DNA of 11,972 nt. Source: a bacterium (GTDB taxonomy: Bacteria; UBP15; UBA6099; DSWB01). The DNA lies in assembly GCA_020061125.1 (NCBI GenBank), contig JAGUYV010000331.1, forward strand, positions 1 through 11,972. Direction: 5' to 3'. The notes beneath the pieces were generated by a model. It did no database searches. It was given only the letters and a program-made list of their open reading frames with translations, and was not told the DNA's origin. The translations under genes were made by a program, and so were the position numbers. Each line of letters starts with the position of its first letter. Positions within the stretch are counted from its first letter, which is position 1. Of the stretch, positions 1 to 3,815 are shown piece after piece.

Positions 1-173
1 ACGGCGTCCGCGAGCGCCGGCCCCACCCATGCGTGGTCCCGCCCCGGTCCGCGCTCCGCGAAATCGAACACCAGCACCTGGCACGGCGCGGCCCAGGCGC
101 ACACGCATACAAGCATCATGGCGCAAAAAAACGCAACTTCGAGCAGCCTGTTTTTGATCCGCGGAATCCGCAT
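1..173 (-). CDS. Exported TolB/FlgO-like protein, N-terminal part only
   Basis: Only the first 57 or so codons are in the window; the gene continues past position 1. The start ATG lies 2 nt after the TAA of the HPr-kinase-like gene, so translation is probably coupled. The N-terminus is a good signal peptide: a basic stretch (MRIPRIKNR) followed by a hydrophobic run through about residue 28 ending in AWAAP. The mature part begins QVLVFDFAERGPGRDHAWVG, then PALAD. This resembles the first strand and helix of TolB-like, CsgG or FlgO periplasmic domains, whose typical form is VAVLPFxxxSxxxxxxxxGxxLAD. That match is by eye over about 25 residues, so the family call is tentative. Being last in the visible RiPP-like operon, the protein may work on the peptide after export or may simply be co-transcribed. 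Confidence 0.6.
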   Translation of the reverse strand, partial: MRIPRIKNRLLEVAFFCAMMLVCVCAWAAPCQVLVFDFAERGPGRDHAWVGPALADA

Positions 174-175
174 TA

Positions 176-1138
176 TTAACACAGTCCCGCGCCGCGCAGA
201 ATGTCTTGCAGAAACACCGCAGGCGCGGCGCTTTCCCGGACGAGCGTGATTCTTATGTGGCGGCTCCGGGCCATCAATTGATCCAATATTTTAACATATA
301 ACCGCATGTCGTCTCCCTGGAGCGGCGAAATGCATGCGGCCAGAAGTTTCTTATAAGCGAATGCGGGGGAGGCGTCACGCGCCACGGCGTCTCCTGCCGC
401 GCCCCATTCCGGGTAGAAAATCATGCGCAAACTCGCGGGTTCATCCGCGTTCAACTCCGGCGGCGTGAGAAATCCGGCCAGGCCGCATTCCTTATACCCG
501 CGCGCCATAAGGGCCTCCCGCTCCTTCGCATCCAGAGCGCGCGCATTCACCGCTTCGCGCACGGGCATGGCGCAGACATCCTGACCCTGCATCACCACGG
601 GGAGGCTGTCGTCCGCAAGCAGATCCCAGCCTCGGGACACAAGGGTTCTGGCCAAAGTGGACTTGCCGCACTCGTTGTCCCCCACAAACGCCACGGCCTG
701 TCCATTTGCAGCAGCCGCAGCTGCGTGCATGAAACACCAGTTGCTTTTCAGCATAACGATACGCACGAATACGGGCGTCGCGCACAGCACTGCGGTTTCC
801 GCGTCCGCCTTGTTTTCAGGCAGGAGCGCCGCCGCGCATTCGCCGGTTTCGCTGTAAAGCAGTCCGGCATGCGGCCCGCAGGACACGGCCCGCGCGCCGC
901 TCATGCCTGACGATAATGAATCGAACAGGCCGCGGTCTTTCACCAGAGCCAGGGCGCCGGCCCGCGGCCAGACGGGATTCCGGACTGTCTCGATTTCCGC
1001 TTCAGCGCCGAATCTGAAGACAGGGGCGAGGCGCGCGATGTCCGGCGCATCGGTGATGATGCGGAACGAATTGCCGAACGCGCGGAATGTGATGAGGGAG
1101 AGCATGAAGGATTTGCGCCGCGCTGCGGGCGCGGTCAT
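176..1138 (-). CDS. HPr kinase/phosphorylase-like P-loop protein (HprK-related)
   Basis: The protein has about 320 residues if it starts at the ATG ending at 1138. Seen directly: a Walker A motif GDNECGKST near residues 153-161, preceded by an MHAAAA segment near 136, and followed by RGWDLLADDSLPVV near 169-182. This His, P-loop and acidic ADD order is the core of bacterial HPr(Ser) kinases. The rest does not look like a true sugar-regulation HprK. HprK-like proteins are known in RiPP clusters, including lasso clusters where they phosphorylate a side chain in the peptide. The inferred role is phosphorylation of the precursor encoded just upstream, or nucleotide-dependent help in its maturation. 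The frame stays open to an upstream ATG at 1216, but that start would overlap the precursor gene by more than 50 nt. The 1138 start leaves a 22-nt gap. It has no clear Shine-Dalgarno, and an ATG at 1105 is another option. Confidence 0.82.
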   Translation of the reverse strand: MTAPAARRKSFMLSLITFRAFGNSFRIITDAPDIARLAPVFRFGAEAEIETVRNPVWPRAGALALVKDRGLFDSLSSGMSGARAVSCGPHAGLLYSETGECAAALLPENKADAETAVLCATPVFVRIVMLKSNWCFMHAAAAAANGQAVAFVGDNECGKSTLARTLVSRGWDLLADDSLPVVMQGQDVCAMPVREAVNARALDAKEREALMARGYKECGLAGFLTPPELNADEPASLRMIFYPEWGAAGDAVARDASPAFAYKKLLAACISPLQGDDMRLYVKILDQLMARSRHIRITLVRESAAPAVFLQDILRGAGLC

Positions 1139-1140
1139 GG

Positions 1141-1162
1141 GAGCGCCGTGCGAGGGGCGCTC
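1141..1162 (-). promoter_or_regulatory. GC-rich RNA hairpin between precursor and kinase genes
   Basis: On the minus-strand transcript, GAGCGCC pairs perfectly with GGCGCTC across an 8-nt loop. The 5' arm overlaps the last two bases of the precursor stop codon, and the 3' arm ends 2 nt before the likely kinase ATG. No U-tract follows, so it is not a standard terminator. It fits a processing or 3'-end stabilising hairpin, or a structure that hides the ribosome site of the kinase. Either would raise the ratio of precursor to enzyme. Confidence 0.5.
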
Positions 1163-1289
1163 ATTTGTCGGTGGTGCTTCCCAGGGTGCCGAGGCAGGAC
1201 GGCCCCTTGTACACATCCTTGAGCGTGCCGTAGCGGGTGAGCACGGGTTTTTCGTATGGCTTTTTCTGCTGCTGGCCGGGTTGCGTCAT
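1161..1289 (-). CDS. RiPP precursor peptide with lasso-type leader (42 aa)
   Basis: This 42-residue peptide starts with the ATG that overlaps the stop codon of the radical SAM gene (ATGA). A perfect AGGAGG lies 7 nt upstream. The leader contains Y12-EK-P15-V-L17-TRY-G21, which matches the YxxPxLxxxG signature found in lasso-peptide leaders and bound there by the PqqD-like B1 protein. In lasso leaders a Thr follows six residues after the Gly; here that position is Tyr27. If cleavage occurs at the lasso-equivalent site, the core would be G29 to K42, GPSCLGTLGSTTDK. It has one Cys (C32), two Ser and three Thr. There is no Asp or Glu at core positions 7-9, so a lasso macrolactam cannot form. The leader match and the adjacent PqqD-like and radical SAM genes strongly support a real precursor. 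The final structure is unknown. Confidence 0.85.
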   Translation of the reverse strand: MTQPGQQQKKPYEKPVLTRYGTLKDVYKGPSCLGTLGSTTDK

Positions 1290-2341
1290 GTTGCGGCCTC
1301 CTGTTTTTTGAAGAATACGGAATTGATGCGGCAGACTTCCCGGGGCGGGGCCGTGAACTCGCCGTGTTCCAAAAAAGCCAGGCCCGGGCAGGGATGACAC
1401 TTGGGGAAATGTTCGCACCCGAAACACTCGAAATCGCTCAACTTGAATGCGCGCAGTTTCTTGAACAGCGGGCTGTGCGCCCAGATATGCTCGAAGGACT
1501 GCTGATTGAGATTGCCGGCGGGCGCGCTGACCACGGAGCAGGGACGCACATCGCCGGAGGCGGTGATGTAGCATGCCGTGGCGCCCATGCTGCACCAGGA
1601 GGAAAGCGGACTGTCCGGGGTGAGTTCGCCGGACGCGGGCATGCGGTCCTCGTCCATGAAGGTTTCCCACGGTTTGGGCAGGCGGCACAAAAGCCTGTCG
1701 TCAAGCCGCAGGTCCAGGGGTGCGCGGCCTCCGTCGTCCTGCGGGGTAATAAGGGTGTTGTACTGGAACATAAGCCCGTTGCCGCGGCAGAAGCTTTCAA
1801 CCTGTTCAAAGGATGCTGCGTTGAGGCGCGTGAGGGCCGTGACCACGACCACGGGCAGGCCCCTGCTTTTGAGCAGGCTGATGGCGCGCAGGGTGCGCTC
1901 GTGCGAGCCGGGGGTGCGCGTCACCGCGTCGTGCACGGCCGGGTCCATTGAGTACAGGCTTACGCCCACCTGCCGCACTCGGTTCGCGCTGTGCGCCAGC
2001 ATGTCCGCGTGCGCCGCCTCCAGAAGCGTGCCGTTGGTTTGCAGAGTGAGCAGGAACCCGGCGTCCAGCACGGCGCGAATCATATCCGTGGCGTCTGGCC
2101 GGCACAGGGGTTCGCCGCCGGTGAGGTTGATGTGGAACGCGCCCGAGCGGCGCAATTCATCGAGCAGATGCGTGAAGCGCTCCAGAGACAGGCCCGGCGC
2201 TCCGGCCTGGCCCGCGCTGTTTATGACCATGCAGTGGGCGCAGTTGAGATTGCAGCGGCGCGTGGCTTCTATCTGCACGCGTACGGGCGTGTGCGCTCCG
2301 GCCATGCGGCGGAACAGTGTTTTCCGCGATTCCTGCCTCAT
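1286..2341 (-). CDS. Radical SAM/SPASM peptide-modifying enzyme
   Basis: The protein has 351 residues. The radical SAM cluster motif CNLNCAHC is at C30, C34 and C37 and binds the [4Fe-4S] that cleaves S-adenosylmethionine. GGEP at 75-78 is the SAM-binding motif. The C-terminal part has a SPASM-type cysteine set: C250, C257, C268 (in GDVRPC), C306, C309, C315, C318 and C337. It also has the usual GNL and IW landmarks between C268 and C306. SPASM enzymes typically modify peptides, making thioether, C-C or similar crosslinks, and use auxiliary Fe-S clusters. The gene overlaps by 4 nt (ATGA) with both the PqqD-like gene before it and the precursor gene after it, so the three are almost certainly co-translated. 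The likely substrate is the 42-residue peptide; its single Cys makes a thioether one option, but the chemistry cannot be read from the sequence. Confidence 0.93.
   Translation of the reverse strand: MRQESRKTLFRRMAGAHTPVRVQIEATRRCNLNCAHCMVINSAGQAGAPGLSLERFTHLLDELRRSGAFHINLTGGEPLCRPDATDMIRAVLDAGFLLTLQTNGTLLEAAHADMLAHSANRVRQVGVSLYSMDPAVHDAVTRTPGSHERTLRAISLLKSRGLPVVVVTALTRLNAASFEQVESFCRGNGLMFQYNTLITPQDDGGRAPLDLRLDDRLLCRLPKPWETFMDEDRMPASGELTPDSPLSSWCSMGATACYITASGDVRPCSVVSAPAGNLNQQSFEHIWAHSPLFKKLRAFKLSDFECFGCEHFPKCHPCPGLAFLEHGEFTAPPREVCRINSVFFKKQEAAT
1297..1302 (-). promoter_or_regulatory. Perfect Shine-Dalgarno of the precursor peptide
   Basis: AGGAGG lies inside the last codons of the radical SAM gene, 7 nt before the precursor ATG. 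It is the strongest ribosome binding site in this operon, since the neighbouring genes have weak ones. It decides the start of the 42-residue peptide and fits the need for more substrate than enzyme. Confidence 0.8.
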
Positions 2342-2643
2342 GCGCCGTCACGCTCCGTCCCGGCAAGTTTCTGTTCCAGCAAATCGCTGACCAGCTCGAC
2401 GGTGTCCGCGGACGCGGTTTCCGGATCCACATCGAATTCCGCCACCACCAGATCCACAATCTCTCGCACCGTGCGCGCCCCGTCCAGCATGCGCCAGATG
2501 AAGCCGCCGGTGGGATTCAGGCTGTAATATATGCCCGTGTTCAAATCCAGGAGCACGGACTCGCCCTGCAATTCCCGCTCGATCACTTCGGCGCTGCGCG
2601 TGCATACCCGATCCAGAATCATGTTTGTTTGGCCCCGCGTCAT
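2338..2643 (-). CDS. PqqD-like RiPP leader-recognition protein
   Basis: The protein has 101 residues and is the first gene of the minus-strand operon. The segment ESVLLDLNTGIYYSLNPTG, then FIWRMLDG and REIVDLVVAEFDVD, is typical of the PqqD family. These small winged-helix RiPP recognition elements bind the leader peptide and present it to the modifying enzyme. In lasso clusters the equivalent B1 protein binds the YxxPxL leader motif, which is present in the precursor encoded two genes downstream. The start is uncertain. The first ATG (2643) lies only about 10 nt from a strong -10 element and would give an almost leaderless message. An in-frame ATG at 2622 gives 94 residues, keeps the whole domain and fits the promoter better. 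Neither has a good Shine-Dalgarno. The stop overlaps the radical SAM start as ATGA. Confidence 0.9.
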   Translation of the reverse strand: MTRGQTNMILDRVCTRSAEVIERELQGESVLLDLNTGIYYSLNPTGGFIWRMLDGARTVREIVDLVVAEFDVDPETASADTVELVSDLLEQKLAGTERDGA

Positions 2644-2828: not shown

Positions 2829-3815
2829 ATGAAACTTGTGAAAGCGTTAACCGCGGCATTGCTGCTGGCGATTGCCGCATGCGGCGCTTGCCTCGCCGCG
2901 GAACAGGCTGTGAACCCGGCCGCGCCCTCCCCGGATATGCAGTTGATGCCGGGCGACGCGCTTTACATCCGGATTCCCGCGGAGCCTGCATTGAGCGGCG
3001 AGTACAAGGTCGCCGAAAACGGAAAGATCTATTTCCCGGTTCTTGAAACCGCGGACCTGGGTTCGATAAGCGTGATTGCCTGCAAAGACATGAAGACAGG
3101 CAAGACGCGCGGCTGCACCGTGGCCGAAGCCGAGGCCATGATTAAAGCCAAACTGGGCAATTATTTCGTGGACGCCACGGTCGTGGTGGAACTCATGTCC
3201 TTCAGCGTGCGCGCCGCCAACACCATCGCCATTTACGGCCAGCTTCAAAGCCCGGGCGCTTACTCGCATTTCGAGGGCATGCGCCTTCTGGATGCGTTCA
3301 TCAAAGCCGGAAGCATTTCCCCGGATGCTGACCTCAAGAATGTACGCCTGCTGCGCGACGATCTCACCATCGCCATTGATGCATCCGGTGTGATCAACGG
3401 CACGGACATGGCCCAGAACCTTGTGCTGCAGCCTCGTGACTACATCATCGTGCCCTCGCGTGAACCGATTCAGAAAGTCAAGGTGCTGGTGCTTGGGCAG
3501 GTCAGCCGCGTGGGTTCGTTCTATCTGCCCGAAGGCGCAACCGTGCTGGACGCGCTTGCGGCCGCGGGCGGTGCGCAGGGCCGCGCGGGCGTGGGCAAGT
3601 CCTACATCATCCGCATGGTGGACAATCGTCCCACGGCCGTGCCCGTGGACATCAAGGCGCTCATCAGCCGTCTCGACCTGGAACAGAACCGCGAACTGCT
3701 TAACAACGATGTGCTCTTCGTGCCGGAATCGAGCGGCATTAACCTAAACGAAATCATGAGCAACTTGAGCATGTTCAATCTTCTCACCACCACATACGAC
3801 GACGCAATTGAGTGA
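2829..3815 (+). CDS. Polysaccharide export protein (Wza/OPX family, SLBB domains)
   Basis: The protein has 328 residues from the ATG preceded by AGAGGGATTCGGA. The N-terminus is a signal peptide with a lipobox-like IAAC at residues 15-18; cleavage after LAA at 22-24 by signal peptidase I is an alternative. Residues about 35-125 match the polysaccharide biosynthesis/export domain (MQLMPGDALYIRI; GKIYFP; sorting-like AEAMIKAKL). Two SLBB-type repeats follow, at about 132-205 (IAIYGQLQSPGAY) and 218-300 (VLVLGQVSRVGSFYLPEGA). The C-terminal 25 residues could form the short amphipathic helix that inserts in the outer membrane in Wza-type channels. Such proteins form the outer-membrane exit for capsule or exopolysaccharide. 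An insert with two Cys (C84, C96) within the export domain is unusual. No glycosyltransferase or Wzc-type kinase gene is adjacent. Confidence 0.88.
   Translation: MKLVKALTAALLLAIAACGACLAAEQAVNPAAPSPDMQLMPGDALYIRIPAEPALSGEYKVAENGKIYFPVLETADLGSISVIACKDMKTGKTRGCTVAEAEAMIKAKLGNYFVDATVVVELMSFSVRAANTIAIYGQLQSPGAYSHFEGMRLLDAFIKAGSISPDADLKNVRLLRDDLTIAIDASGVINGTDMAQNLVLQPRDYIIVPSREPIQKVKVLVLGQVSRVGSFYLPEGATVLDALAAAGGAQGRAGVGKSYIIRMVDNRPTAVPVDIKALISRLDLEQNRELLNNDVLFVPESSGINLNEIMSNLSMFNLLTTTYDDAIE

Follow-up and report, generated by a model that had tools for sequence, protein, structure and literature searches.

The window analyzed here is an entire contig of 11,972 bases from a draft genome of the candidate phylum UBP15 (513 contigs, 79% complete). 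We consider it likely to carry a RiPP cassette built around a radical SAM enzyme that is guided by a RiPP recognition element (RRE), probably with a kinase step. A lasso-B1-like RRE, a radical SAM/SPASM enzyme, a precursor peptide and an HprK-like kinase are encoded side by side (Table 1). The UBP15 cassette is one version of a widespread and apparently uncatalogued group.

Organization and conservation of the cassette

The preliminary description of this DNA reported overlapping genes for a PqqD-like protein, a radical SAM/SPASM enzyme and a 42-residue peptide. All three are present on the reverse strand, and both ATGA junctions were verified, appearing on the forward strand as 'tcat' at 2338-2341 (RRE and radical SAM enzyme) and 1286-1289 (radical SAM enzyme and peptide). 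The sequence GGAGG lies a few bases 5' of the ATG of the peptide gene. The gene for the HprK-like kinase begins 22 bp downstream of the peptide gene and belongs to the cassette, which makes it a four-gene unit. No export or protease gene was found in the operon, and a scan of the window for promoters and terminators returned nothing useful.

Table 1. Features of the cassette and its neighbors, numbered from the first base of the window.
Feature	Position	Strand	Size and evidence
PqqD-like discrete RRE (RiPP recognition element), lasso-B1-like	2338..2643	-	101 aa; PF05402 E 8e-23
Radical SAM/SPASM enzyme	1286..2341	-	351 aa; PF04055 E 2e-23 and SPASM PF13186 E 6e-10
Precursor peptide	1161..1289	-	42 aa; ATGA start overlap, GGAGG upstream, orthologues, purifying selection
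Lasso-like leader motif Y-x-x-P-x-L-x-x-x-G (YEKPVLTRYG)	1227..1256	-	NF033521 score; conserved in UBP15 orthologues
Conserved core segment G-P-S-C	1194..1205	-	Cys at Tyr+20; Ser a putative phosphate acceptor
HprK/PEPCK-fold kinase-like protein	176..1138	-	320 aa; start at second in-frame ATG
Truncated start of secreted TPR-type protein	2..173	-	Homology to L021 TPR protein; synteny
Polysaccharide-export (SLBB/Wza-like) protein, divergent	2829..3815	+	PF02563, PF10531, PF22461; synteny

The cassette was found in 7/7 UBP15 genomes, comprising the window's own and six others of the same order. Where the contigs of the relatives extend, it has the same neighbors, namely divergent genes for an SLBB export protein, a small protein and an S1-domain protein, and a TPR protein after HprK. 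The SLBB/Wza-like gene holds the same divergent position in the relatives and is a conserved neighbor outside the biosynthetic unit. As the window is the entire contig, DNA left of base 1 cannot be read. The ORF at this edge matches the TPR protein of L021 (34% identity over 58 aa, E 2e-5), and the same secreted TPR protein comes after HprK in UBP15 relatives. Lasso genes past the left edge, which the preliminary description had raised as a possibility, were rejected on these grounds.

Orthologues of the peptide occupy the same place in the six other genomes of the order. Between the peptide genes of G005 and G004, synonymous differences were found at 16/21 sites and nonsynonymous differences at 4/72, and the precursor peptide is under strong purifying selection. 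Because of these orthologues and this selection, the small ORF is not a chance reading frame, and its conservation among related clusters, which had been in question, is established.

A gene for a B12-binding radical SAM protein (best match ApyD, below cut-off) was observed in two of the genomes. It lies between the peptide and HprK in G001 (L025 7240-8754, reverse strand), and follows the peptide in G005, where it is cut by the contig end (L020 7600-7780). It was rejected as a fixed part of the cassette, since it occurs only in G001 and G005 and a strong homologue was not found elsewhere.

Leader recognition

The window peptide (MTQPGQQQKKPYEKPVLTRYGTLKDVYKGPSCLGTLGSTTDK) bears the YxxPxLxxxG leader signature ascribed to it, as Y12-x-x-P15-x-L17-x-x-x-G21, and this motif is kept in the UBP15 orthologues, one of which (G001) has Phe for Tyr. 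The sequences compared are KKPYEKPVLTRYGTLKDVYKGPSCLGTLGSTTDK (window), KKTYSKPVLTKYGTVKDVYNGPSCKAIMNSEADK (G005), KK(A/T/P)YSKPVLTKYGTVKDVYTGPSCKAIMEAEADK (g3 genomes) and KKLFVKPTLTKYGTVKDVYSGPSCKAAMAKDADK (G001). Against the NCBI lasso leader model NF033521, the window peptide scored 18.0 bits (E 0.0022; curated cut-off 19); of all peptides tested, none but those from this UBP15 cassette gave a match to the NCBI lasso precursor models, and each of these matches stayed below cut-off. The leader Y, P, L and G are all present, but at Tyr+15, where lasso precursors have a Thr close to the cleavage site, the window peptide has Tyr. The peptide has a single Cys, at Tyr+20, and ends in Lys; the Ser of GPSC is invariant in UBP15 peptides.

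A profile built from the seven RREs retrieved TbiB1 (5e-17), PbaB1 (9x90; 1e-15), LppB (9x8z; 2e-11), TfuB1 (3e-8) and PqqD (5e-5) from the PDB, and NCBIfam lasso PqqD models matched the window RRE below cut-off. For an AlphaFold2 model of the PqqD-like protein (pLDDT 91.7), leader-bound TbiB1 ranks first among matching structures, TfuB1 next and PqqD after. By profile and predicted fold, the window RRE is of the lasso B1 type and nearer to lasso B1 than to true PqqD. In LppB, the Pro of the leader is held by N33 and the hydroxyl of its Tyr by D70; YxxP binding is almost abolished in N33A and weakened in D70A mutants (PMC13381572). The equivalent leader-binding residues of the window RRE, Asn43 and Asp80, are both kept.

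Of 28 RREs, 26 have D at the position equivalent to D70, and the remaining two have E and Q. The sole Q RRE (G001) pairs with the sole Phe-for-Tyr leader found; this covariation, as read from the sequences, is a single event, but a specific one. In the RRE of genus g3, the Asn33 equivalent is Lys.

Radical SAM enzyme and kinase

The radical SAM enzyme has CxxxCxxC at C30/C34/C37 and seven C-terminal cysteines (C250, C268, C306, C309, C315, C318 and C337), and both the motif and the seven SPASM-region cysteines are invariant in the seven UBP15 orthologues. Its closest solved relative is the sporulation killing factor maturase SkfB (E 1e-23), a sactionine synthase. No model's cut-off was reached in an NCBIfam search with the window enzyme; PqqE (86/381 bits, score/cut-off), MftC (128/265 bits) and AhbD were among the best matches. 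Assignments as AhbD, NirJ, PqqE, MftC or a SynChlorMet enzyme were rejected, all being far below cut-off.

In a 50-row radical SAM tree, the UBP15 cassette enzymes and unlinked solo UBP15 paralogues formed one clade (100/100), and the three-Cys cassette enzymes of other phyla, described below, a separate clade (100/100). A common origin of the two was dropped from consideration, as the tree leaves their relation unsettled. The solo paralogue was observed in 6/7 UBP15 genomes (L027 7789-8826, reverse strand; L026 8582-9643; L032 8001-9020), and no YxxP peptide was found beside it.

The HprK-like protein matched HprK-related A (E 3e-8) and PF07475 (E 5e-5), both below curated cut-offs, and the P-loop, the His before the P-loop and the DD motif are conserved in the HprK-like proteins of relatives. 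A sequence-profile search of the PDB gave ABC-type P-loops as best matches and HPr kinase at E 1e-4, and the HprK assignment therefore rests on fold. The C-terminal domain of the AlphaFold2 model (pLDDT about 90) matches structures of PEPCK and HprK, which share a fold, and by this model the kinase-like protein has an HprK/PEPCK fold. In paeninodin, the C-terminal Ser is phosphorylated by an HprK-like kinase. In the linear polyphosphorylated peptides (LPP), such a kinase phosphorylates core Ser3 (PMC13381572).

Occurrence in other phyla

A scan of a genome collection with the radical SAM alignment yielded 80 loci, 23 of them with an upstream PqqD gene (two from UBP15). A YxxP peptide directly follows the radical SAM gene in 21/23 of these PqqD-radical SAM loci, and HprK is nearby in 19/23. 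A search for homologous PqqD-radical SAM-precursor-HprK neighborhoods had been proposed in the preliminary description; cassettes with PqqD, a radical SAM gene and a YxxP peptide, in most cases together with HprK, were found in UBP15 and in at least eight other phyla (at least nine in total), which include Omnitrophota, Aminicenantes, Aerophobota, Myxococcota, Thermodesulfobacteriota, Chloroflexota, Nitrospirota and Bdellovibrionota. Among 19 peptides from outside UBP15, 16 have their first Cys at Tyr+20 and three at Tyr+18, and the C-terminal residue is Ser or Thr in 15. Each of these two counts (Cys at Tyr+20, C-terminal Ser/Thr) was reached by 0 of 10,000 shuffles, odds that are overstated because the peptide loci are related to one another. 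Searches of Pfam and NCBIfam with five of the three-Cys peptides gave no matching model, which makes the widespread three-Cys version a candidate uncatalogued RiPP class.

Further loci of related kind were observed in UBP15. A second cassette has the order HprK-PqqD-radical SAM-peptide (L134 3361-5950; L135 6150-8679, reverse strand; L136 6212-8844) and a peptide reading KRPYxKPxIKSxxIKDTFLACGKC...PELS; in L135 and L136 it adjoins an SLBB polysaccharide-export protein. The window's own genome holds another PqqD-radical SAM-peptide set (KPYAKPAVESERIFETTALACGKC...VTS; L003/L029 141-1648). In G001, a diaminopimelate-decarboxylase-like protein (L137 5298-6647, reverse strand) starts with MKMLYEKPVIKRLRTG, a YxxPxI RRE-binding motif, and a PqqD-like ORF lies ~1 kb from its gene (L137 7698-8114, reverse strand). 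Judging from these motifs, the enzyme may be held by an RRE.

Proposed pathway and alternative explanations

We posit that the PqqD/B1-type RRE would bind the YxxPxL stretch of the precursor leader and offer the radical SAM/SPASM enzyme the core at the C-terminal end (GPSC...DK). This enzyme would make a carbon-centered modification on the core; of the individual options, a Cys-centered crosslink is the likeliest. The HprK-like kinase would probably phosphorylate the peptide, in UBP15 perhaps on the GPSC Ser, which is invariant there. A protease whose gene lies outside the operon, possibly an orphan lasso-B2-like protein, would then cut off the leader, and the product would be a non-lasso peptide. 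This order of steps, as well as a role connected with exopolysaccharide or the envelope, is put forward tentatively.

Our reading of the locus as a RiPP cassette draws on the 7/7 synteny in UBP15, the selection on the peptide, the B1-like RRE with its leader-binding residues, the radical SAM/SPASM cysteines and the SkfB relative, together with the 23-locus survey, the Tyr+20 Cys, the C-terminal Ser/Thr, the RRE/leader covariation and the HprK/PEPCK fold. Against it stand the one Cys and Lys end of the UBP15 peptide versus the three-Cys, Ser/Thr-ending peptides elsewhere, the separate UBP15 radical SAM clade, the HprK scores below cut-offs, the Lys at the Asn33 equivalent in g3 and the lack of an export or protease gene in the operon.

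The preliminary description saw the radical SAM enzyme as standing in for lasso machinery. This holds for the locus, as neither a lasso B2 protease nor a lasso cyclase accompanies the cassette in any UBP15 genome and a full SPASM radical SAM enzyme is there instead. It calls for a caveat at the level of the genomes, where an orphan B2-like gene lies elsewhere in 7/7 cases, so that lasso-type leader cleavage in trans is possible. The six relatives have one PF13471 (lasso-B2-like) protein each, near panE in most (L128-L133), and the proteins of the two relatives tested both pass the NF033537 cut-off; in the window's genome, a 3' fragment of the gene sits at another contig's end with the same neighbor (L158 1426-1569, reverse strand). 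Matches to PF00733 (Asn_synthase) occur in all UBP15 genomes as well, on other contigs. These proteins, together with the lasso-like leader and the B1-like RRE, would fit a degenerate or split lasso pathway, in which a true lasso precursor is cut by the orphan B2, cyclized by an unlinked Asn-synthetase-like protein and tailored by the radical SAM enzyme. We nevertheless consider such a pathway very unlikely: none of the relatives has a cyclase in the vicinity of the cassette or of B2, most strong Asn_synthase matches lie in frames of 620-660 aa, as for ordinary AsnB-type proteins (by length), and Tyr replaces Thr at Tyr+15. If the core starts at the Gly of GPSC, the window core moreover lacks Asp/Glu at positions 7-9, and its position 9 is variable among orthologues (E, N, A, G).

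A redox-cofactor or other non-antibiotic role, as for PQQ and mycofactocin, would have the radical SAM enzyme turn a constant scaffold into a cofactor or an envelope-associated metabolite. It would account for the order-wide conservation of peptide and synteny, which is not the pattern of fast-evolving antibiotic clusters, and for the fixed position beside a polysaccharide-export gene, and the family models that match the radical SAM enzyme best include PqqE, MftC and AhbD. Since these models are all far below cut-off, no other cofactor-pathway genes were noticed nearby and an HprK-like kinase is not known from the PQQ or mycofactocin pathways, we regard this role as unlikely. The small ORF might also be a leader-like decoy or regulator, with the PqqD/radical SAM pair acting on another target; that the enzyme modifies this peptide is something we infer, and these genomes also encode other radical SAM peptides whose leaders carry YxxP. 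A decoy appears extremely unlikely, however, given that the ORF directly follows the radical SAM gene in all UBP15 relatives, as a YxxP peptide does in 21 of the 23 surveyed loci, and given the RRE/leader covariation.

Beyond the RRE-guided radical SAM cassette itself, we raise a bolder idea that is possible, if doubtful. The loci would constitute an unnamed cross-phylum RiPP class, consisting of PqqD(B1-like), radical SAM/SPASM and a YxxPx(I/L) precursor with Cys at Tyr+20, plus an HprK-like kinase, with a crosslinked, phosphorylated product tied to exopolysaccharide loci. In UBP15, a lasso-style leader would have been retained or reacquired, with the orphan B2 cutting it in trans, and the cassette would be a hybrid that combines the logic of lasso, LPP and radical SAM systems.

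Relation to known systems

The earlier proposal of a shared leader-recognition module coupled to radical SAM chemistry was right in kind, as indicated by the B1-like RRE, the leader-binding residues and the conserved motif, but the case is neither unprecedented nor a one-off. It is not new in principle, since the RRE-Finder survey reported about 300 'discrete lasso' RREs beside radical SAM enzymes (PMC7470986), W/Y/LxxP recognition is given for lasso, PQQ and StsC RREs (PMC12710340), and the YxxP motif is common to lasso, PQQ, sactipeptide (StsC) and LPP systems (PMC12710340, PMC13381572). LPP systems, in addition, combine an RRE, a YxxP leader and HprK without a cyclase, in clusters near capsular polysaccharide loci (PMC13381572). 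The RRE-Finder category likewise pairs a B1-like discrete RRE with a radical SAM enzyme (PMC7470986); it is a bulk category without precursor or kinase definition, whereas precursor, HprK, synteny and phylum range are defined here. The window cassette resembles LPP in its discrete RRE, HprK-like kinase and YxxP leader without a macrolactam cyclase, whereas LPP has an SpI peptidase, an NTP transferase and an MsbA-like exporter, comes with no mention of a radical SAM enzyme and is restricted to Bacillota (PMC13381572). Neither an SpI leader peptidase nor an NTP transferase or MsbA-like exporter was recognized among the cassette neighbors in UBP15.

Paeninodin-type lasso pathways share the discrete B1-type RRE, the [Y/W]xxPxL leader and the HprK-like kinase; the UBP15 cassette differs in having no linked B2 or cyclase, in its radical SAM enzyme and in Tyr for Thr at Tyr+15. 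YxxP-type recognition (StsC; PMC12710340), a SPASM radical SAM enzyme and a Cys-containing core are common to the window cassette and sactipeptide systems (StsB/StsC, SkfB), the last two being features of ranthipeptides as well, but the window enzyme falls below the StsB cut-off, its peptide has a single Cys and sactipeptide systems are not known to include a kinase. SynChlorMet (NCBIfam ScmC/D/E/F) also joins PqqD-like, radical SAM/SPASM and HprK-like proteins, and of the NCBIfam models it is ScmD that the window RRE matches best; all scores stay far below the cut-offs (ScmC 19/125, ScmD 56/100, ScmE 123/400 and ScmF 68/400 bits), and the SynChlorMet cassette has two radical SAM enzymes, whereas that of UBP15 has one. 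Among the open-licence papers searched, none describes this exact combination, and the specific cassette, its range of phyla, the Tyr+20 Cys and the C-terminal Ser/Thr were likewise absent from them.

Significance

One leader-recognition module, the B1-type RRE with its YxxP leader, is common to lasso, phosphopeptide and radical SAM pathways. The cassette matters because it recurs in nine phyla or more, and because the family libraries that were searched (Pfam, NCBIfam) do not contain it. Being a compact four-gene unit, it allows testing whether radical SAM and HprK chemistry share one peptide, and with the orphan B2 protein, ideas on how leader proteases evolved become testable.
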